Positions 6,462 through 63,038 of a stretch of 64,000 nucleotides of DNA are shown here, in pieces. The number at the start of each line of letters is the position of its first letter. The first letter of the stretch is position 1. The translations under genes and the position numbers were made by a program. Source of the stretch: Stagnihabitans tardus (lineage in GTDB: Bacteria > Pseudomonadota > Alphaproteobacteria > Rhodobacterales > Rhodobacteraceae); contig NZ_JAABNR010000010.1 in assembly GCF_009925085.1 (NCBI RefSeq), positions 62,001 to 126,000 of the forward strand. The letters are read 5' to 3'. The notes under the pieces were generated by a model that had not been told where the DNA came from, searched no databases, and saw only the letters and a list, made by a program, of their open reading frames with translations.

Positions 6462-6491
6462 TCCCCGGAGTATTTGGGCCAAATTGAAAGC
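6462..6491 (+). repeat. Dispersed palindromic element, copy A
   Basis: The block runs from CCCCGGAG to AATTGAAAGC with the central 13-bp palindrome ATTTGGGCCAAAT at 6472-6484. It lacks one A found after CCGGAG in most other copies. Copy B lies downstream in reverse orientation. Confidence 0.85.
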
Positions 6492-6610: not shown

Positions 6611-6642
6611 GCTTTCAATTTGGCCCAAATATCTCCGGGGGG
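6611..6642 (-). repeat. Dispersed palindromic element, copy B (inverted)
   Basis: Reverse orientation copy with its core palindrome at 6618-6630. Read on the minus strand it is preceded by a GC hairpin (6647-6662), as in copies C, D and F. Together with copy A it can form a long stem. Confidence 0.85.
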
Positions 6643-8417: not shown

Positions 8418-11126
8418 CTAAAGCCGCAAGGCGATGGCGCGCTCCAGCGTCTCGGGCTTGTTGGCCAGGGGGGCGCTGCGCGGGAAGACCCGCGCCCAAT
8501 CGGCCGGGGGCGCCGTCTCGGGCAGGCGCGAGAGGATCGCGGGGGCGGCGGCAAAGAAGGGAATGTTCATCGGCAAGGCGGCCAGCTCGGCGGCCAGGTC
8601 GCGCGCCAGGGCAGGGCGGGCGAAGAGCGCGGCGAGATACAAAAGCGCCATCCGTGCCTCGGCGCCTTGCAGGGTCTTGCGGTCAAGCACCAGGGCCTCG
8701 ATCTCCAAGGGAGGGCTCTGCCGCTTCCAGGCTTGCAGGAACCGCCCGGCCATCGTGTCCATCTGCGCGGGCGGGGTGGGCAGGGGGCGGGTCAGGCCAT
8801 GAGCCGCGAAGGCCCGGGTCAGGGTCGCCAAGGTCGCCATGGCCTGAGGCTTGCCGATCTCGATGTGATCCAGCGTCGGCACGGTCAGGCGGTGCATCGC
8901 GCCATCTTCGGGCGACCAGCGGCGTTTGAACGTGTTCAACAGCCGCAGCCGCTCCAGGTCTTCGCAGGCGAGGAGCAGGGTTTCGGGATTGGCGCCGGGC
9001 CTCGGCGCCCAGGGCCGGGTATCGGGCCGGGGCAGGCGGTGGACGGGCCAGGCGTCCAAGAGCACGAGGCGCGGGGCAAGCTCTGGCGCCAGCTCCCGCG
9101 CCGTGGCCCAGGACAGGAAGCCGCCCAGCGAATAGCCCGCCATCAGAGCGGGTTCGGGCGCCTTGCCGCCACGGATCGCCTGGGCCAGGGCAAGGACCGC
9201 CCTTTGCCAGTTGTCGCCGTCGATCGTGCGACCCTGGGAAAAGCGGGCATCACAGGCCCAAAGCGCATGGTCGGGGAAGTTTCCCGCCGCGACCCAGGTC
9301 TCGGCCCCCGCCCCGCCCACCAGGCCCGGCGGGATCAGCGCCACCTGGGCGCCCGGCGTGATCTGGCGGAAGTCCAGCTCCACCCCCTCCGCCCGGCCCG
9401 TGACCGGCACGGAGGCCACCTGCGGCCCCAGTTGCCGCAAGAGCTCGCGCAGCGTGGCGCGGGCGACAAAGGCCTCGACATCCAGCCGCTGACCAAACAG
9501 GCGCTGGATTTCAAGTTGCAGGTCCATCAGCAAGAGGCTGTCCCCGCCAAGCGAGAAGAAATCGGCCTCCATCCCGACCGAGGGCAGCTTCAGGATACGG
9601 GCGACGAGGGCGGCCAGACCCTCGGCCGAGGCAGCGGCAGGCGTGGCCAGCGGCTCCAGCCCCGCCAGGAGCGCCTTGCGGTCGGTCTTGCCCCCTGGAA
9701 GCAGCGGCAGGCTTTCCTGCCACTGGAACTGGCCCGGGATCATGTGCGGCGGCAAGAGGCGGGAGAGGGCGCCGCGCGGGTCGGGATGGGTGCCGGTCAC
9801 GAAGGCCACCAGGGGATTGCCATGCGCCCCCTCCCGGACCGCCACGGCCACGGGGCCAAGTCCGGGCAGGCCGCCCAAGTGGCTCTCGATCTCGTCCAGG
9901 GACACCCTTTGGCCGTTGATCTTGACCACCCGGTCCTGGCGGCCCAGGACCTCGAGGTCTCCCGAAGCCGTCAGCCGCGCCACATCGCCCGTCGCATAAA
10001 GCCCGCCCGCAAAGCGGCTGGTGTCGATCCGGCCCTCTTGCCAGTCGCCCAGGGCGTGGAAGCCGGACTTGATGACCAGTTCGCCCGCATCCCCCGGCCC
10101 CTCTTGCCCGCGCAGGGTGAAAGAGGACAGGGGATAGATCCGCCCGATGGGCACCGTTCCCGGTGCCAGGTCCTGCCCAAGGTCGGTCCAGATGAAAAGC
10201 GCGCTTTCCGTGCTGCCATAGACGTTCTGGATCAGCGCAGCAGGCGCCACGCGCCGTGCAAGGTCCAGGTCCGAGGTCAGGAAGGGCTCGCCCGAAAAGC
10301 GCAGGCCCTGCAACAGGCCCAAGGCCGCCGCGCCCTCGGGCTGGCTGGCGGCCAGGCGAAAGAGCGAGGGGGTGAAGCGGACATGCCGCACGCCCTGGGT
10401 CTGGATCGCGGCGAAAAGCCCGGCCAGACCCTCGGTCTTGACATCCACCAGGCAAAGCGCCCCTCCGGCCAGCAGGAAGACCAGGGCGTGATGCAGGAAG
10501 CCGTAATTCGCATGGCTGCCCGCGATCAGCACCCGGTCCCCCTCCGTGACCCGCATCAGCCCTTGCGAGGCGCGCAGCTTCGCCTGCAAGGTCCGGGCGG
10601 CATAGGCGATGATCTTGGGCTCTCCGGTCGAGCCCGAGGTCGGGAACAGCAGCGCGGGCGCCTCGGGTCCAAGGCCGGGATCGGGGGCAGGGCCGGTTCC
10701 CGGACGGCCCGAGGGGGTCAGCGTGGCGATGCCCGCACCGGCCAGCGGAAGGTCGTGCAACAGAACCTGCGCCCCCGCCCGCTGGATCAGCATGAGGTTG
10801 CGCGCCTCGGGATTGCCGGGCTCCAGCAGAAGCAGCGGCCGCCCCGCCCAGGCGCAGGCGAACCAGGCCGCCACCGACAGGGGGCTGGCCTGCATCAGGA
10901 CCGCGACCGGCCCCGGCGGAGCCTGCACCGCGCGCAGCTCCTCGGCCAGGCCCTTGACCAGCCGAAAGAGCTGGCCGAACCGCGTGACCTTGCCGCCCTG
11001 GATCAGCGCGACGGCATCCGGCTGCGCCTTGGCCACCTCGCGCAGCGCCCGGACCAGGCCCTGGTTCAAGAGCCGCGCTTCGGGCGCCGGAAAGCCCGAG
11101 GTGATCCAGGTCTCGGGCGGCGTCAT
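8418..11126 (-). CDS. NRPS-like protein with adenylation, carrier and thioesterase domains (A-T-TE)
   Basis: A 902-residue single-module synthetase without a condensation domain. The adenylation domain (about 1-490) has the P-loop TSGSTGEPK (163-171), YGSTES (303-308), TGD (379-381), a GRQDR/VKINGQR hinge (395-407) and the catalytic lysine in PGGKTDRKAL (480). The carrier domain has the phosphopantetheine site GGDSL (Ser530). The thioesterase/hydrolase domain has GYSLGG (Ser666), an LLDAW acid and a late histidine (TLDHIE). About 130 further C-terminal residues are unassigned. In the A4 region a tyrosine seems to sit where amino-acid-activating domains keep Asp235, suggesting a substrate without an alpha-amine. 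ATGA overlap with the upstream gene shows a two-gene operon. The product is unknown. Confidence 0.85.
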   Translation of the reverse strand: MTPPETWITSGFPAPEARLLNQGLVRALREVAKAQPDAVALIQGGKVTRFGQLFRLVKGLAEELRAVQAPPGPVAVLMQASPLSVAAWFACAWAGRPLLLLEPGNPEARNLMLIQRAGAQVLLHDLPLAGAGIATLTPSGRPGTGPAPDPGLGPEAPALLFPTSGSTGEPKIIAYAARTLQAKLRASQGLMRVTEGDRVLIAGSHANYGFLHHALVFLLAGGALCLVDVKTEGLAGLFAAIQTQGVRHVRFTPSLFRLAASQPEGAAALGLLQGLRFSGEPFLTSDLDLARRVAPAALIQNVYGSTESALFIWTDLGQDLAPGTVPIGRIYPLSSFTLRGQEGPGDAGELVIKSGFHALGDWQEGRIDTSRFAGGLYATGDVARLTASGDLEVLGRQDRVVKINGQRVSLDEIESHLGGLPGLGPVAVAVREGAHGNPLVAFVTGTHPDPRGALSRLLPPHMIPGQFQWQESLPLLPGGKTDRKALLAGLEPLATPAAASAEGLAALVARILKLPSVGMEADFFSLGGDSLLLMDLQLEIQRLFGQRLDVEAFVARATLRELLRQLGPQVASVPVTGRAEGVELDFRQITPGAQVALIPPGLVGGAGAETWVAAGNFPDHALWACDARFSQGRTIDGDNWQRAVLALAQAIRGGKAPEPALMAGYSLGGFLSWATARELAPELAPRLVLLDAWPVHRLPRPDTRPWAPRPGANPETLLLACEDLERLRLLNTFKRRWSPEDGAMHRLTVPTLDHIEIGKPQAMATLATLTRAFAAHGLTRPLPTPPAQMDTMAGRFLQAWKRQSPPLEIEALVLDRKTLQGAEARMALLYLAALFARPALARDLAAELAALPMNIPFFAAAPAILSRLPETAPPADWARVFPRSAPLANKPETLERAIALRL

Positions 11127-12148
11127 GCCCGCAGCCGGGCCTTTTCTTCCGCCGGGAAGGGGGCCGGGTGGATCCCGTCGAAGAGGCTCAGGCGCAGGGG
11201 CAGGCCCTGGGGCATCTCGCGGTCCCAGGTCAGCGGTGTGACGAAGGCGGGCTTGACCGCCCCGCCGGCCAGGCGAAAGGTGACGGCGCCGTTCTGCACC
11301 CTGATGGCGCCGCCGGGGAAGGGGCGGAAGGACAGGCAGGCCGGGTGGCCGATCTGGCGGCAGAAGAAGCCGCCCGCCTCGGCCACGATGGCGCGCACCT
11401 CGGCTCCCCAGACCGCCTCGGCGCGTTCATAGGTGGCGATCTTCAGGCTGGCCTCCTCGACCGAACAGGACCGGCCGAGGAATCGCTCGACGATGCCATG
11501 TTCGGCCTCCGAGATGCCGGGCTTGGGCAGGACCTCGACCCTGGCCATATGGGCGGAGAAATCGCCCAGCTCGGCCTGGTTCAGCACCCAGACATGATCC
11601 TGCGCCCCAAGCCTTTCGATCATCCGCCGCAGATGGGCGACATAGGCATTGGTCTTTTCATAGGGGATGGCGTTGGTGTGAAAGGCGACGCCGTTGTTGA
11701 TGACGATGGCAAAGCGCAGACCCGGCGCATGGATCAGGTCCAGCCGCGCCTTCAACCGGGCGACCTGCCACAGAAGCATCAATTCGGTCTGGTCGGGGGC
11801 GAAAGTATGGGCCAGCGCCCCACCCCTGACATTGGTGCGGTAGCCGCCGTGAAACAGGAAATAGATCGGCAGGGGCTGATCCGCCGCAATCAGGCGACCA
11901 AAGGTCTCCAGCAGGTCCGGGGCCAGGTGGGCGGTCTTGCCCTTGGACTGGTAGTTGAACTCGTGGTGTTGCAACAGCGCGAGGATCGCTGCGGGATCGG
12001 CCTTGGTCATGGCGCTGGCGGGCCTGGCAAAGATCGCCCGCATGTCGGCGATCCGGGCATCGAGCCAAGACTGCAAGAGATCGCGCTGAGGGGACGGGGG
12101 GGCGTCCTCGGCCGGGTTCAGCTCTGGCAGGACGCTCACGCCGGGCAT
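11123..12148 (-). CDS. Possible isocyanide synthase-like protein (distant Dit1/PvcA resemblance)
   Basis: 341 residues from ATG 12148, chosen for its Shine-Dalgarno GGAGAG six bases upstream; an earlier in-frame ATG at 12259 would add 37 low-complexity residues. Not firmly recognised. Remembered family features of Dit1/PvcA align in order: a hydrophobic strand after a proline (LPIYFLFHGGYRTN), Asp...Glu in a helix (PDQTELMLLW), Pro-Gly before a strand (APGLRFAIVINNGVAF, in the place of SDGxVF), a following tyrosine helix (NAYVAHLRRM), and a late strand pair (CLSFRPFPGG) like the family's RLSIHPQ. The usual SDG is changed to NNG, so activity may differ. It overlaps the A-T-TE gene by four bases and lies 160 bp after hypE. 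Confidence 0.4.
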   Translation of the reverse strand: MPGVSVLPELNPAEDAPPSPQRDLLQSWLDARIADMRAIFARPASAMTKADPAAILALLQHHEFNYQSKGKTAHLAPDLLETFGRLIAADQPLPIYFLFHGGYRTNVRGGALAHTFAPDQTELMLLWQVARLKARLDLIHAPGLRFAIVINNGVAFHTNAIPYEKTNAYVAHLRRMIERLGAQDHVWVLNQAELGDFSAHMARVEVLPKPGISEAEHGIVERFLGRSCSVEEASLKIATYERAEAVWGAEVRAIVAEAGGFFCRQIGHPACLSFRPFPGGAIRVQNGAVTFRLAGGAVKPAFVTPLTWDREMPQGLPLRLSLFDGIHPAPFPAEEKARLRA

Positions 12149-12307: not shown

Positions 12308-13321
12308 TCAGCAGATGCGGGGCAATTGTTCTCCGACCAGCATGTCGACCCGCCGCGCGCCGCCAAAGCGGGTGCGCATCGAGACCTGGCCCGCGGGGCC
12401 TGGTTTGACCTGGCCGATGACGACGGCGCCCTCACCCTCGGGCAGGGAACGCATGGCTTCCAGGATGGCGGGGGCCGAGGCCCCGGGGCAGAAGAGCACC
12501 AGTCGGCCCTCGTTGGCGAGATAGAGCGGGTCGAGCCCCAGGATCTCGCAGACGCCCACGACCTCGGGGCGCAGGGGCAGAAGCGCCTCGTCGATCTCGA
12601 CCGCGACGCCCGCCTCGGTCGCCAGCTCATTCAGCGCCGAGGCGAGGCCGCCCCGCGTGCAGTCGCGGGCGGCATGGAGGGGCGCTGCCGCCAGCGCCGC
12701 CTGCATCAGGGCGCCAAGGCTGGCGCAATCGGACTGGATGTCGGTCGAAAGCGCCAGGTCGCCCCGCGCGGCCAGGATCGTGGCGCCGTGGTCGCCCAAG
12801 ACGCCGTTGACGATGACGGCATCGCCGGGCTGGATATGGGCCGCGCCGATGTCGCAGCCCGGGGGGATGACGCCGATGCCCGAGGTGGTGACGAAGACCC
12901 CGTCGCCCTTGCCGCGCTCGACGACCTTGGTGTCGCCGGTGACGATGCGGACGCCCGCGCTTTGCGCCTCGGCGGCCATGGTGGCGGCGATGCGGCGCAA
13001 CAGGGCGATCTCGCAGCCCTCTTCGATGATGAAGGCGGCCGAAAGCCAGAGCGGCCGTGCCCCGCCCACCGCCAGGTCATTGACCGTGCCGCAGACCGCC
13101 AGCTTGCCGATATCGCCGCCGGGGAACTCCAAAGGCGTCACGACGAAGCTGTCGGTGGTGAAGGCCAGCCGCGCGCCGGGCTCTTGCAAGGCCGCCGCCA
13201 TCAGCCGCGCCTGGTCCTCCGAGCTTTCGGGCTGGAAGACCGAGGTGAAGACCGCCTCGATCAGCTCCTTCATCGCCCGCCCGCCGCCGCCATGGGCCAT
13301 GGTCACATGGGTATCGCGCAT
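12308..13321 (-). CDS. hypE: Hydrogenase maturation protein HypE
   Basis: Makes the cyanide ligand of the [NiFe] active site: HypE receives a carbamoyl group from HypF on its C-terminal cysteine and dehydrates it to thiocyanate with ATP. The 337-residue protein has the glycine-rich N-terminus (MAHGGGGRAMKELI) and ends in PRIC, the expected C-terminal cysteine. The ATG at 13321 gives the usual family length. The 53-bp gap from hypD contains a dispersed palindromic repeat rather than the four-base overlap common elsewhere in this operon. Confidence 0.96.
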   Translation of the reverse strand: MRDTHVTMAHGGGGRAMKELIEAVFTSVFQPESSEDQARLMAAALQEPGARLAFTTDSFVVTPLEFPGGDIGKLAVCGTVNDLAVGGARPLWLSAAFIIEEGCEIALLRRIAATMAAEAQSAGVRIVTGDTKVVERGKGDGVFVTTSGIGVIPPGCDIGAAHIQPGDAVIVNGVLGDHGATILAARGDLALSTDIQSDCASLGALMQAALAAAPLHAARDCTRGGLASALNELATEAGVAVEIDEALLPLRPEVVGVCEILGLDPLYLANEGRLVLFCPGASAPAILEAMRSLPEGEGAVVIGQVKPGPAGQVSMRTRFGGARRVDMLVGEQLPRIC

Positions 13322-13328
13322 CTTGTCT

Positions 13329-13375
13329 CTTTCAATTTGGCCCAAATATCTCCGGGGTGCGGGGCATAGCCCCGC
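13329..13375 (-). repeat. Dispersed palindromic element, copy C, with GC hairpin, between hypD and hypE
   Basis: Conserved block at 13329-13357 (core palindrome 13335-13347), and on its far side the hairpin GCGGGGC-ATA-GCCCCGC (13359-13375). On the transcribed minus strand the hairpin comes first and touches the hypD stop codon. It fills nearly all of the hypD-hypE gap. Confidence 0.85.
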
Positions 13376-14508
13376 TACTCCGCCGCCACCCGCGACCCGT
13401 ATTGCCAATAGGCCGCACAGGCCCCCTCGGACGAGACCATCAAGGCCCCCAAGGGCATTTCGGGCGAGCAGCCCTTGCCGAACTGCGGGCACTGGGTCGG
13501 TTTCAGCTTGCCCACCATGACCTTGCCGCATTCGCAGCCCGCGATTTCCGGCACCGGGGCGCGGGTCCTGGCATAGCCGATGCCGAATTTCTCCTCGGCA
13601 TCGAAGGCGCGGTATTTCGGCCTGATCCGCAGGCCGGAGGCGTCGATCTCGCCCAGGCCCCGCCATTCGAAAGAGGGGCGTTTCTCATAGACATCGTCGA
13701 TAGCGGCAAGGCTCACTGGGTTGCCATGCTCGGGCACCACCCGGCCATATTGGTTTTCCACCGCCGCCCGGCCCTCGGCGACCTGGGTCAGGATCATCAG
13801 GATGGACTGCAAGAGGTCCGTGGGCTCGAACCCCGCCACGACGATGGGCTTGCCATAGTCGCGGGCAATGAAATCATAGGGATGCACGCCGATGACCATG
13901 GACACATGGCCCGGCCCGATGAAGCCGTCCAGCACCATGTCCGGGTCGTCCAAGAGCGCCTTGATCGGCTCGGGCACCGTGATGTGGTTGCAAAAGACGC
14001 TGAAATTCCGCAAGCCCTCGCGCGCGGCCTGCTGAACCGAAAGCGCGGTCGAGGGCGTCGTGGTCTCGAACCCCAGGCCGAAAAACACCACCTCCCGCTC
14101 GGGGTTCCTGCGCGCCAGCTCCAGCGCGTCCAGCGGCGAATAGACCATCCGCACATCGGCGCCCCCGGCCTTGGCCTGCATGAGGCTCTTTCTGTGCCCC
14201 GGCACCCGCATCGCATCGCCGAAGGTGGTGAAGATCACCCCGGGCCTCTCGGCGATCTCGACACATTCATCCACCCGCGCCATGGGCAGGACGCAGACCG
14301 GGCAGCCGGGGCCGTGGATGAACTCGATCCCCTCATGGACCAGCTTGTCGAGGCCATAGCGGAAGATCGAATGGGTATGGCCGCCGCAGATCTCCATGAT
14401 GTGGAGCGGTTTGGCCCTGGAGGCCCCAAGGGCATCGGCCTTGTCCGCGATGGCGGACAAGAGCGCGCGGGCCAGGGCGGGGTCGCGGAATTCGCTGGCG
14501 AATTTCAT
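13375..14508 (-). CDS. hypD: Hydrogenase maturation protein HypD
   Basis: Iron-sulfur scaffold that, with HypC, assembles the Fe(CN)2CO unit. The 377-residue protein shows EICGGHTH near residue 38, GPGCPVC near residue 70, GFETTTPS near 155, and a C-terminal cysteine cluster (CECGK, QCPQFGKGC, EGAC) that binds the [4Fe-4S] centre. The chosen ATG (14508) overlaps the hypC stop codon by four bases, fitting a coupled operon. A longer open frame upstream is not protein-like. Confidence 0.96.
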   Translation of the reverse strand: MKFASEFRDPALARALLSAIADKADALGASRAKPLHIMEICGGHTHSIFRYGLDKLVHEGIEFIHGPGCPVCVLPMARVDECVEIAERPGVIFTTFGDAMRVPGHRKSLMQAKAGGADVRMVYSPLDALELARRNPEREVVFFGLGFETTTPSTALSVQQAAREGLRNFSVFCNHITVPEPIKALLDDPDMVLDGFIGPGHVSMVIGVHPYDFIARDYGKPIVVAGFEPTDLLQSILMILTQVAEGRAAVENQYGRVVPEHGNPVSLAAIDDVYEKRPSFEWRGLGEIDASGLRIRPKYRAFDAEEKFGIGYARTRAPVPEIAGCECGKVMVGKLKPTQCPQFGKGCSPEMPLGALMVSSEGACAAYWQYGSRVAAE

Positions 14509-14786
14509 GGGGCAGCCTCCAAGGCCAGGTCGGCGGCCCGCATCTGCTCCACCGCCTCCTGCGCCTCGCCGAGGTCGCGGAGCGCCTCCAGCGTGCGGGC
14601 GGCCTCGTCTTCGTCGATCAGCGCCATGGCAAAGCCCACATGGATCAAGGCCCATTTGCCGATCGGGTCCTCACCTGCCACGCAGGCGACGTTGACCGCG
14701 CGCCTCACGCCCGAGACCTCGGCCATGGCCATAAGCGAGGCCTTATCCACCCAGGCGATGATCCGCCCCGGAATCCCCAGACACAT
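14505..14786 (-). CDS. hypC: Hydrogenase maturation chaperone HypC
   Basis: Small chaperone that works with HypD and hands the iron cofactor to the large subunit precursor. The 93 residues begin MCLGIPGRI; Cys2, exposed after methionine removal, is the essential ligand residue. Overlaps hypD by four bases and hupR by one (TGATG). A second HypC-family gene (hupF) is encoded in the same operon. Confidence 0.95.
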   Translation of the reverse strand: MCLGIPGRIIAWVDKASLMAMAEVSGVRRAVNVACVAGEDPIGKWALIHVGFAMALIDEDEAARTLEALRDLGEAQEAVEQMRAADLALEAAP

Positions 14787-16258
14787 CAGTCTTCCTCCTC
14801 TTCCGAGACCCGGCCCGATGGGTCGTGAATGCCGTAACGGTCAAGTTTCGCCCGCAGTCCGACGCGCGACAGGCCCAGCTCCGCCGCGGCCCGGCTCTTG
14901 TTCCAGCGGTGCCGCGTCAGGGTCTCACGCAGGATCCGCATCTCGATCAGCTCGACCCGGTCCTTCAGCGTGCCATCGGCGGTCAGAACCCCCTCGGCGG
15001 AGCGGTCGGCCCCGCTGTCGCTGGGCGGCGCCTGCAGGATCGGCCTGGAAATCAGCTCGGCCCCGAGCAGGGGGCTTTGCGCAAAGACCAGCATCCGCGT
15101 GACCTCGGCGGTCAGCTCGCGCAGGTTGCCGGGCCAGTCGTAGCCTTCAAGGAACTCCAGCGCGGCGGGGGTGAAGCCATGGGCCGCCTTGCCATGGCGG
15201 GCGGAGAGTTCCCCCAGGAAATGCTGCGCCAAAAGCGCCACATCGCCGCGCCGGGCGCGCAAGGGCGGCAGGGGCAGTTCCGCCACGGCCAGGGCATAGT
15301 AAAGATCGGGGCGGAAGGCGCCCTCGGCCACGCGCCGCGCCAGGTCCGCGCCTGCCCCCAAGATCAGCCGCAGGTTGGTCGTCAGGACCTCTTGCCCGCC
15401 CACCGGAGAGAAACTGCCCTCCTCGACCAGCCGCCACAGCGCCAGTTGCAGGCTGGGGGAGGCGTGCTCGACCCCATCGAGGAACAGCGTCCCCCGGTCG
15501 GCCTTTTGCACCAGGCCGATCTTGCCGACGCCGCCCGCCAGGATGCCCCGCTTGGCGCCGAAAAGCTCCAGCGCCGCAAGGTCTTCGGGCAGGCCCGCCA
15601 GGTTCAGCCCCTGGACCGGCTTGTCCGACCGCAAGGAGCCATAATGGATCGCCCGCGCCAGCCGCGCCTTGCCGGTGCCGGGTTCCCCCGTGATCAGGAC
15701 CGGCACGTCGAAGGTCGCATAGCGCCGGGCGGCCTCGACCACGGCATTCATCGGCGAGCCCGGGGCGCGCAGGATGGTCTGAAAGCCCATGCCCTCGATG
15801 AGCGCCTGGCGCTTGCGGTCCAGCTTGCCCTGGGCGGTCGAGGCGAGGAAGCGCATCTCGAGCGCCATGCGCTCGTTGTCGCGGGCGAGCTGGAACAGCC
15901 GCGCGCCGTTGCGGGCGGCCATCAGAAGCTGGTCGGGATGCCAGGGCTTGGTCAGGAACTGATGGATCCCCGCCTCGTTGATCGCCTGGGCCATGGCGGC
16001 GGCATCGGTATAGCCGGTGATGATCACCCGCACGACCTCGGGCCAGCGTTCGCGCACCTCGGTCAGGAAATCGACCCCGGTGCGCCCCGGCATCCTCTGG
16101 TCGCAGATCACGACCTGGACCCAATCCTCCTCCATCCGCTTCAAGGCGCCCTCGACATCGCCCGCCGTCAGGCAGTCAAACTCGTCCTCCAGCGCCATGC
16201 GCATGGCCGAAAGCGAATGCGGTTCGTCATCGACGAGGAGAAGGGCGGGGCGGCTCAC
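14786..16258 (-). CDS. hupR: Hydrogenase response regulator HupR (NtrC family)
   Basis: DNA-binding activator of hydrogenase genes and partner of the histidine kinase HupT. The 490 residues contain a receiver domain (acidic pocket VDDE near 10, phospho-acceptor Asp53 in ICDQRMPG, Lys in TKPW), an AAA+ central domain with Walker A GEPGTGKA (191-198), and a C-terminal Fis-type helix-turn-helix ([18 protein letters not shown]). The sigma-54 contact loop is degenerate: GILAGG (238-243) replaces GAFTGA, as expected for HupR, which in R. capsulatus works with sigma-70 and activates when unphosphorylated. It sits between hypB and hypC with overlapping ends. Confidence 0.93.
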
Positions 16259-17079
16259 GGGTGATCCCCCATCTGCGCCTTCAACCAGGCGAGCCAGGCC
16301 GCCATGCCTTCGCCGGTGCGGGAGGACAGCTTCAGGATCTCGATCTGCGGGTTCACCCGGCGCAGATTGGCCTCATAAAGGTCAAGGTCGACGTCGCAAT
16401 GCGGGGCGAGGTCGACCTTGGTCAGGATGGCGAGGCGCGAGGCGGTGAACATGTCGGGATATTTCAGCGGCTTGTCCTCGCCCTCGGTCACCGAGAGGAT
16501 GGCGACCTTGGCGAATTCGCCCAGGTCGAAGCCCGCCGGGCAGACCAGGTTGCCGACGTTTTCGATGAAGAGGATCGAGTCAGGCCGGGGCCGCAAAGTG
16601 TCGATGGCGCGGCCCACCATCTCGGCATCGAGATGGCAGCCCTTGCCGGTGTTGATCTGAAGCGCGCGGGCTCCGGTGGCGCGGATGCGCTCGGCGTCGT
16701 TGCTGGTCTGCTGGTCGCCCTCGATCACCGCCAGGGGCGTGTCGCCCAGGGCTTCGATCGTCTTGCACAGAAGCGTCGTCTTGCCCGAGCCTGGCGAGGA
16801 GACCAGGTTCAGGGCCAGCACGTTCAGCGCGGAGAGCACCCGGCGGTTGCCCTCGGCGAGCGCGTCGTTCTTCGACAGGACAGCGGTTTCGACCTCGATC
16901 AGCCGGGCCTGGCTCAGCCCCGGGACCGAGACGCCCGCCGGGCCCTGGCCGTAGTGGTGGTGGTCGGGCTTCGGCGCGATGTTCGAGGCAAGCACATTGG
17001 CGAAGGGCGCCGTCGCGGATTTGGCCGCAGGCTTGGCGTCGAAGACGGGCACATCATGGCAGCCGCAGACGGTACACAT
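16255..17079 (-). CDS. hypB: Hydrogenase nickel incorporation GTPase HypB
   Basis: GTPase that, with HypA, inserts nickel into the large subunit. The 274 residues start with the metal-binding motif MCTVCGC, then a short histidine cluster (KPDHHHYG near residue 40; modest compared with the long His-rich stretches of some rhizobial HypB), and the G domain with P-loop [18 protein letters not shown] and ENVGNLVCP. Overlaps hupR by four bases and abuts hypA without a gap. Confidence 0.96.
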
Positions 17080-21782: not shown

Positions 21783-23084
21783 ATGCCCATCCTGCCCCCA
21801 CCCCATCCCGAGCTCTCTGCCCGCCCGCATTTCACCGATGATGCCTGGGTCGAGGTCCTGTCGGCGGTCGACCGGACCTATGCCGACCTTGTGGGCTACC
21901 AGGAGCAGCTGGAGCGCCAGAACGCCGAGCTTCTGGAGATGCGGACCTTCCTGACCGCGATCCTGGGCTCGGTCTCGGATGTGCTGATCGTGGCGGACAA
22001 GCAGGGGGTCGTGGCCGAGGTCTCGCAGTCCTTGGACCAGACCTGGGGCGGGGCGGAGGCCAGGGGGCGCCCAGTGGCCGAGGTCTTTGCCGCCGAGGAT
22101 CGGGCGCTGCTTCTGGCCCTGATGCAGAAGGTGCGTGACGCGCGCCGCGCCCATGCGGTCGAGGTGCGGCTGGCGGTGGGGGAGCCCCTGGACCTGTCCA
22201 TCGCGCCCCGGGTGAACGACCAGGGCAGGGTCGATGGCTTTGTCCTGACCGGGCGGCCCCTGGGGGCGCTCCGCCAGGCCTATGCCGAGCTGACCCAAAG
22301 CCATGACGCGCTGAAGGAGACCCAGGCGCAGTTGGTGCGCAACGAAAAGCTCGCCTCGCTGGGGCGGCTTTTGGCGGGGGTGGCGCATGAGCTGAACAAC
22401 CCGATCAGCTTCGTCTATGCCAATGCCCATGCCCTGGAGCGCTATTCGGCCAAGTTCGAGACCTATTTCGCCCGCGTGCAAGAGGGCGCCAGCCGCGAGG
22501 AGCTGATCCAGCTTCGCGCCAGTCTGAAGCTGGATCGCGAGGTGCAGAACCTGCGCGAGGCGATCCGGGGCGCCAAGGACGGCGCCGAACGGGTGCGCGA
22601 CATCGTCGAGGACCTGCGCAGGCTCTCCTCGGACGGGTCGGGCGAGATGGTGGAGTTCGACCTGGCGGAAGTGGCGCGGATCGCGGCCTCCTGGGTCTTG
22701 CGCGGGATGAAGCAGCCGGTGGAGTTGCAGGCCGAGCTTGCGCCCGTCAAGGTGCGGGGGAGGCCGGGCCATGTGCAGCAGGTGGTGATGAACCTGGTGC
22801 AGAATGCGGTGGATGCCATGGGTTCGGGGGTGATCCGCATGGGCCTGAGGGCCGAGGGCGGCATGGCGGTGCTCCGCGTGGCCGACGAGGGGCCGGGCGT
22901 GCCCGAGGCGCTGCGGGCCTCGATCTTCGATCCTTTCTTCACGACCAAGCCCGTGGGGCGCGGCACGGGGCTTGGCCTCTCGATCAGCCACAAGATCGCC
23001 GAGGAACATGGCGGCAGCCTGACCCTGGCCGATACGGCGACCGGGGCGGAGTTCCTTTTGTCCCTGCCCTTGGAGGCATCATGA
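21783..23084 (+). CDS. hupT: Hydrogenase sensor histidine kinase HupT
   Basis: Cytosolic histidine kinase that phosphorylates HupR when H2 is absent and is controlled by the HupUV sensor. The 433 residues have a short coiled N-terminus, a PAS domain (about 55-160), the H-box GVAHELNNP with His202, an N-box (NLVQNAVDAMG) and G boxes (DEGPGVPE, GRGTGLGLS). No membrane segment is present, in line with sensing through HupUV. It overlaps hupU by four bases. Confidence 0.93.
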   Translation: MPILPPPHPELSARPHFTDDAWVEVLSAVDRTYADLVGYQEQLERQNAELLEMRTFLTAILGSVSDVLIVADKQGVVAEVSQSLDQTWGGAEARGRPVAEVFAAEDRALLLALMQKVRDARRAHAVEVRLAVGEPLDLSIAPRVNDQGRVDGFVLTGRPLGALRQAYAELTQSHDALKETQAQLVRNEKLASLGRLLAGVAHELNNPISFVYANAHALERYSAKFETYFARVQEGASREELIQLRASLKLDREVQNLREAIRGAKDGAERVRDIVEDLRRLSSDGSGEMVEFDLAEVARIAASWVLRGMKQPVELQAELAPVKVRGRPGHVQQVVMNLVQNAVDAMGSGVIRMGLRAEGGMAVLRVADEGPGVPEALRASIFDPFFTTKPVGRGTGLGLSISHKIAEEHGGSLTLADTATGAEFLLSLPLEAS

Positions 23085-25454: not shown

Positions 25455-25504
25455 GGGGGCGCTGCCCCCAAACCCCCGGAGATATTTGAGCCAAATTGAA
25501 AGCC
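25455..25504 (+). repeat. Dispersed palindromic element, copy D, with GC hairpin
   Basis: Hairpin GGGGGC-GCT-GCCCCC (25455-25469) followed by the conserved block (25473-25504), whose core at 25484-25496 reads ATTTGAGCCAAAT with one change from the palindrome. It lies 26 bp after the hupV stop. Confidence 0.85.
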
Positions 25505-48060: not shown

Positions 48061-48205
48061 GGGGGCGCTGCCCCCGGCCTGCGGCCTCCCCCGGGATATT
48101 TGGGCCAAGTGTGAAAGGGGGAAGGAAGAAAGGGAGTATTTGAGCCAAATTGAAAGCAGGGGGCCGGGGGCGGCAAGGGAGTATTTGGGCAAGCATGAAA
48201 GGGGC
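48061..48205 (+). repeat. Three tandem copies (F, G, H) of the dispersed palindromic element
   Basis: Copy F: hairpin GGGGGC-GCT-GCCCCC (48061-48075) and block 48088-48118 with GTGTGAAAGG end. Copy G: 48133-48158 with TATTTGAGCCAAATTGAAAG. Copy H: 48177-48203 with TATTTGGGCAAGCATGAAAG. All face the same way, between divergent SDR and pip genes. The copies are increasingly degenerate. Confidence 0.8.

Positions 48206-61500: not shown

Positions 61501-63038
<1,538 letters not shown>

Follow-up and report, generated by a model that had tools for sequence, protein, structure and literature searches.

The window, a stretch of 64,000 nucleotides from a contig of the alphaproteobacterium Stagnihabitans tardus (NZ_JAABNR010000010.1, positions 62,001 to 126,000), carries on its minus strand two adjoining genes, which encode a predicted isocyanide-synthase-like protein of the PvcA/IsnA fold (P0001, 341 aa, 11123..12148) and an adenylation-thiolation-thioesterase (A-T-TE) one-module synthetase (P0002, 902 aa, 8418..11126). 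Both open reading frames (ORFs) lie where an earlier sequence-only reading of this DNA had placed them. The four-base overlap that it described, the ATGA at 11123..11126, recurs at three related loci: L008 in a Pseudorhodobacter metagenome-assembled genome (MAG; contig of G783), L009 in a Rhodobacterales MAG (JANYFE; contig of G777) and L010 in a Methylococcales MAG, from a gammaproteobacterium. The overlap probably reflects translational coupling of the two genes. A GGAGAG sequence upstream of the P0001 start codon ends 6 nt before it. Between the window and L008, its 75% relative, the nonsynonymous substitution rate (dN) is below the synonymous rate (dS), which argues that P0001 and P0002 are real genes and not chance frames. 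Together they form a real, rare and coupled two-gene unit.

P0001 appears to be a distant relative of the isocyanide-making enzymes, judging by its predicted fold. The AlphaFold2 model is closer to PvcA and PIsnA (solved structures 3e59, and 9dh4 and 9dhm, respectively) than to other PDB chains (Foldseek, VIA), and the PvcA/IsnA fold is assigned to it with middling confidence. The label Dit1/PvcA-like, given to the protein earlier, is thus borne out by the structure prediction but not by the family score. With the Pfam model DIT1_PvcA (PF05141) P0001 reaches 14.5 bits, and its homologues at L010 and L009 reach 20.4 and 20.6 bits, all below the curated cut-off of 26.4; the three canonical bacterial isocyanide synthases (ICS) used for comparison score 277-286 bits. 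Alignments to PvcA and these three ICS place the SDG motif at I150-N-N-G153 (11690..11701, minus strand, as are all features of the pair), where SDG aligns with I150-N151-N152 and Asp is replaced by Asn. The earlier description of this motif as NNG holds for the substitution, which is Asp to Asn in either placement, but the motif itself falls one residue earlier, on I-N-N. All four residues are invariant in the 4 family members, window included, as is H100-GGYR-104 (11837..11851), which aligns with the FPxKS segment of canonical ICS. The RxxxHP and PD motifs of the canonical enzymes are retained.

In P0002, the three motifs on which the A-T-TE assignment had been based are present (P-loop TSGSTGEPK at 163-171, GGDS at 527-530 and GYSLGG at 664-669). 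The Pfam families AMP-binding (118.8 bits) and PP-binding (45.8 bits) exceed their cut-offs and a condensation domain is absent from the four families listed for the protein (E up to 1), which upholds the A and T part of the label; the Thioesterase family, by contrast, reaches 18.3 bits against a cut-off of 26.4. No transferase family is listed by Pfam, and the terminal domain is TE-like. The structure model of the whole protein has a mean pLDDT (predicted local distance difference test) of 46, and the domain bounds given here are of our own choosing.

The A domain (residues about 20-490, 9657..11069, from Pfam and alignments) carries N207-Y-G-F-210 (10497..10508), invariant in 4 of 4 family members, the window among them, at the place where A domains for alpha-amino acids carry FD. 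The Asp that binds the alpha-amino group, which we take to be Asp235 in GrsA numbering, lands on Y208 or G209 in two alignments with LgrA A domains, and is absent from P0002. This residue is typically missing from A domains whose substrate acids have no free alpha-amino group. On our reading of the GrsA positions, the pocket would presumably consist of Y208, G209, H212, S254, R276, S278, V302, L310 and F311. The weaker PDB matches of the domain include salicylate- and 2,3-dihydroxybenzoate-AMP ligases. The T domain (about 495-575, 9402..9644, from PP-binding and motif position) contains the GGDS with Ser530. It is followed by the thioesterase-like domain (about 576-790, 8757..9401), matched below cut-off by both Thioesterase and Abhydrolase_1, in which S666 (GYSLGG), D691 (LLDAWP) and H754 (PTLDHIE) are the probable catalytic triad. 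A C-terminal extension (about 791-902, 8418..8756) is predicted, at low confidence, to be helical.

The distribution of the pair is sporadic. P0001 or the profile of its family was found in 1 of 385 genomes of the class (its own), in 3 of the 16 of the genus (its own included), and in 2 of 394 of the family and 2 of 398 of the phylum, each time its own and one chance match. The corresponding counts for the Methylococcales genome are 2 of the 151 genomes around it (itself and one chance match) and 1 of the 216 of its class (itself). These draws overlap, and chance matches are counted within the figures quoted. Three candidates were rejected as such matches: L002 in G692, which lies antisense to a 676-aa ORF read as methylmalonyl-CoA mutase, L012 in G063, which covers 63 positions only, and L048 in G1183, which covers 43 positions, has an internal stop and lies antisense to a 729-aa ORF. 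A search of genome contigs with two short peptide patterns gave 51 pattern-bearing stretches, which led to the loci L008, L009 and L010; since the patterns are narrow, three is a lower bound. Relatives of P0001 were found neither in plasmids nor, by the peptide patterns, in viral contigs, and a plasmid search with P0002 at E 1e-60 gave no relative.

At each of the four loci known, which span two classes, the gene for the synthetase comes after the first one and overlaps it by ATGA; the co-conservation that had been proposed as a check is therefore seen in relatives as distant as a gammaproteobacterium. The reading frames of L010 are open, and the contig of L008 begins inside the first gene. 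At L009 (10001-12261), the first gene has a stop inside the homologous N-terminal stretch, and the synthetase loses its homology within the A domain, some 290 bases short of the contig end; barring an error in the MAG, this copy therefore appears to be broken. The loss of homology near the contig end has the appearance of an insertion.

The PF05141 model has no match in the genome of the window and matches 5 of the 398 phylum genomes, 4 of them above the cut-off; as none of the 14 control genomes matched in either search, these searches show the divergence of P0001, not the absence of the family. Two further alphaproteobacterial proteins with weak similarity to DIT1_PvcA were noted, one of 466 aa (L023, 892-2289, minus strand) scoring 52.0 bits, which is over the cut-off, and one of 281 aa (L024, 1195-2037, minus strand) scoring 21.9 bits, which is below it. 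No A-T-TE protein was recognized by eye near either (ORF starts of at least 180 aa, stretches of 12-20 kb). They suggest that more divergent relatives of the isocyanide synthases exist.

Conservation is uneven along the pair. Identity between the window and L008 is 75% for the first protein, 69% for A, 54% for T, 56% for TE and 49% for the C-terminal extension, and between the window and L010 it is 44, 55, 24, 24 and 22%, respectively, conservation of the T-TE part falling well below that of the A domain. For the window and L008, dN/dS is 0.19/0.65 in the first gene and 0.24/0.74 in the A domain, against 0.40/0.76 in TE and 0.50/0.92 in the C-terminus, where purifying selection is weaker. With the Thioesterase model, the L010 homologue scores as an ordinary TE (66.5 bits), and L008 (15.3 bits), like the window, falls below the cut-off; the T domain of L010 has GGHS where the window has GGDS. 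Alignment of the window, L008 and L010 matches the Ser and Asp motifs of TE in all three. The His aligns with L008 only, and the candidate His of L010 stands, on our reading, at another column. Because the first enzyme and the A domain are conserved in parallel while T-TE varies, the simplest reading of these comparisons would be that the two share an intermediate and have been kept together, and that divergence or exchange has altered the release module.

The fold, the order of domains, the coupling of the genes in two classes, the purifying selection and the missing Asp form the observed basis for a reading to which we give about an even chance, namely that both genes constitute one biosynthetic unit in which an amino group is masked and the masked acid is activated, loaded and released. 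The PvcA-fold protein would act on a free amino acid and convert its amino group to an isocyanide or an N-formyl group. The A domain would then adenylate the carboxylate of the N-masked acid and load it onto the T domain; an isocyano or N-formyl acid, having no free alpha-amino group, would suit an A domain that lacks the Asp. Finally, TE would release the product as an acid, ester, amide or dimer, perhaps onto an alcohol or amine, and this step would vary between lineages, in keeping with the divergence or exchange of the T-TE part. The product may be a small bioactive or metal-binding compound. The earlier proposal that the pair makes an isocyanide or related metabolite gains from the PvcA-like fold and the linkage of the genes, but is set back by the sub-threshold family score and the changed motifs.

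In outline, the pair may be seen as the bacterial analogue, in split form, of CrmA, a fungal ICS-A-T-transferase protein encoded in the crm cluster of Aspergillus fumigatus. Likenesses to fungal systems are drawn from published descriptions. CrmA makes valine isocyanide, which was also found in mannitol esters (PMC9381783), and a survey of A. fumigatus states that multidomain enzymes joining ICS to a nonribosomal peptide synthetase (NRPS) were found in fungi only (PMC5974471). Both systems combine an ICS-type enzyme with A and T domains to handle one amino-acid-derived unit; however, CrmA is a single fused protein ending in a transferase, whereas in the window the host is bacterial, the functions are split between two genes, the terminal domain is TE-like and the ICS-like protein scores under the Pfam cut-off. 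A fungal arrangement with separate genes is that of Fusarium gene-cluster family 8, in which a separate one-domain ICS gene stands beside an NRPS gene (PMC10153163). Yeast Dit1 belongs to the same superfamily and is an ICS-like protein with a reported N-formyl tyrosine product, but its partner is a P450 (Dit2) and not an A-T-TE protein (PMC7345447). The partners described for Legionella isnAB (PMC5126622) and for DIT1-type genes of Pseudomonas corrugata (PMC5890197) are likewise other than A-T-TE.

Compared with PvcA/PvcB and IsnA/IsnB, P0001 has altered SDG and FPxKS segments, and its partner is an A-T-TE protein instead of a TauD-type dioxygenase. Such a dioxygenase lies beside the synthase in two of the three canonical bacterial ICS loci compared (L020 and L021); none was recognized among the listed ORFs of at least 250 aa at the third (L022). 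One-module A-T-TE synthetases without a condensation domain share with P0002 the order of domains and the P-loop, GGDS and GxSxG motifs, but the window differs in its ICS-like partner gene, NYGF pocket, divergent TE and C-terminal extension. A bacterial pairing of an ICS-like protein with A-T-TE was not seen among the articles listed in the literature searched, most subscription journals lying outside its reach. Within this literature, the pair would be a bacterial variant of the ICS-NRPS idea, earlier reported, as a fused protein, in fungi only.

A broader version of this proposal, advanced tentatively and somewhat short of an even chance, is that a bacterial split ICS-NRPS lineage lies below the Pfam ICS cut-off, in which a rebuilt PvcA-fold enzyme passes an N-masked acid (isocyano or formyl) directly to a dedicated A domain unable to take free amino acids, and T-TE release varies by lineage, yielding different esters, amides or dimers, perhaps with metal-binding ability. 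As a two-protein system, the coupled pair makes the order of events directly testable, including whether the amino group is masked before adenylation. Because the standard family model misses divergent relatives of the isocyanide synthases, the bacterial capacity for isocyanide chemistry may be undercounted.

Several points weigh against the one-unit reading. Besides its low DIT1_PvcA score, P0001 has a model of mean pLDDT 65.3, with 105 of 341 residues below 50, and lacks the Asp of SDG, the Asp of the following FxD and FPxKS, changes through which its isocyanide chemistry may be lost or altered. No Fe/2OG (iron- and 2-oxoglutarate-dependent) dioxygenase of the TauD type adjoins the pair, and no neighboring gene is clearly its own regulator or exporter. 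The sole PF01648 phosphopantetheinyl transferase found in the genome looks AcpS-like (our reading, from its neighbors), which places activation of the T domain by it in doubt. Just four loci are known; contig ends truncate two of them, and the G777 copy seems to be damaged. With the Asp missing, the A domain could just as well load an acid that has nothing to do with P0001, be it keto, hydroxy or aryl.

The altered motifs lend themselves to a rather unlikely alternative in which P0001 is an N-formylating, Dit1-like enzyme, or another altered enzyme of the PvcA fold, that never makes isocyanide, and the A-T-TE protein activates an N-formyl amino acid. The replacement of the SDG Asp by Asn and of FPxKS by HGGYR in 4 of 4 members would agree with this, as would the A domain without Asp, and Dit1 resembles ICS yet reportedly gives formyl tyrosine; the evidence on Dit1 is, however, indirect, as PvcA fails to rescue the mutant and formyl tyrosine was seen after mild hydrolysis (PMC7345447). 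The retention of RxxxHP and PD in P0001 also speaks against it. Telling the two outcomes apart is difficult, since isocyanides are hydrated to formyl groups. It is unlikely that the A-T-TE protein acts on an acid unrelated to P0001 (aryl, keto or hydroxy), the PvcA-like protein serving a later step or another substrate of the same pathway. A-T-TE enzymes without a condensation domain that join aryl keto acids do exist, the NY of NYGF resembles aryl-acid A domains, and the aryl-acid ligases among the weaker PDB matches point the same way, but coupling through ATGA, together with the conservation of P0001 in parallel with the A domain, would favor a shared intermediate. It is highly improbable that the two genes are a cassette in decay, or a cryptic one, with no present function. 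Such a state would account for the presence in only 3 of 16 genus genomes, the seemingly damaged G777 copy and the dN/dS values, which are higher in TE and the C-terminus than those of the first gene and of the A domain; however, the window copy, L010 and the sequenced part of L008 are open, and the first gene and A domain are under purifying selection.

Upstream of the pair, 159 nt away and on the same strand, lies a gene for a HypE-type AIRS protein, after which come genes for HypD, HypC, a sigma-54 response regulator and a HypB-type protein. Together with a histidine kinase-type gene beyond them, these hydrogenase-maturation-type genes and the regulator, which stands between those of the HypC and HypB types, take up 12308-17079 and 21783-23084 of the window. 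No terminator-like site was found in the 159-nt gap (the scan found 4 sites, 2.6 being expected). Co-transcription with hypE was considered, but the hyp context is not taken as functional, since neither L009 nor L010 shows it; at L008 the contig stops at this point.

On the other side, a convergent ATP-binding cassette (ABC) transporter operon, whose facing stop codon is only 2 bases from that of the synthetase, includes a solute-binding protein and an ATPase by Pfam and permeases on our reading; its nearest ORF, which has no Pfam family at E 1e-10, is read by us as an ABC permease. This side is common to the window and L005/L008, except for an aldehyde dehydrogenase between the pair and the permeases of the Pseudorhodobacter MAG (L005, 3606-5018, minus strand; Aldedh, 522.7 bits), which, being absent from beside the pair in the window, is not counted as part of the system. 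A potC homologue (E 1e-100) is present in 11 of the 16 genus genomes. In the potC flanks of six genomes besides G000, G783 and G777, the pair, the hyp genes and the aldehyde dehydrogenase were all not found (tblastn, E 1e-15), and the flanks examined, extending some 1.4 to 12.5 kb past potC, gave no clean empty site.

The window also contains a palindrome-like dispersed repeat, ATATTTGGGCCAAATTGAA, with five copies within 3 mismatches (6470-6488 and, on the minus strand, 6614-6632 and 13331-13349; on the plus strand, like the first, 25482-25500 and 48136-48154), against a mean of 0.00 in 100 shuffles. The copies at 6470 and 6614 form an inverted pair between two ABC-transporter genes. A 21-base form of the repeat has 159 copies within 3 mismatches in the whole genome (87 forward, 72 reverse) and none in the reversed control, and it looks like an element of the REP (repetitive extragenic palindromic) type.

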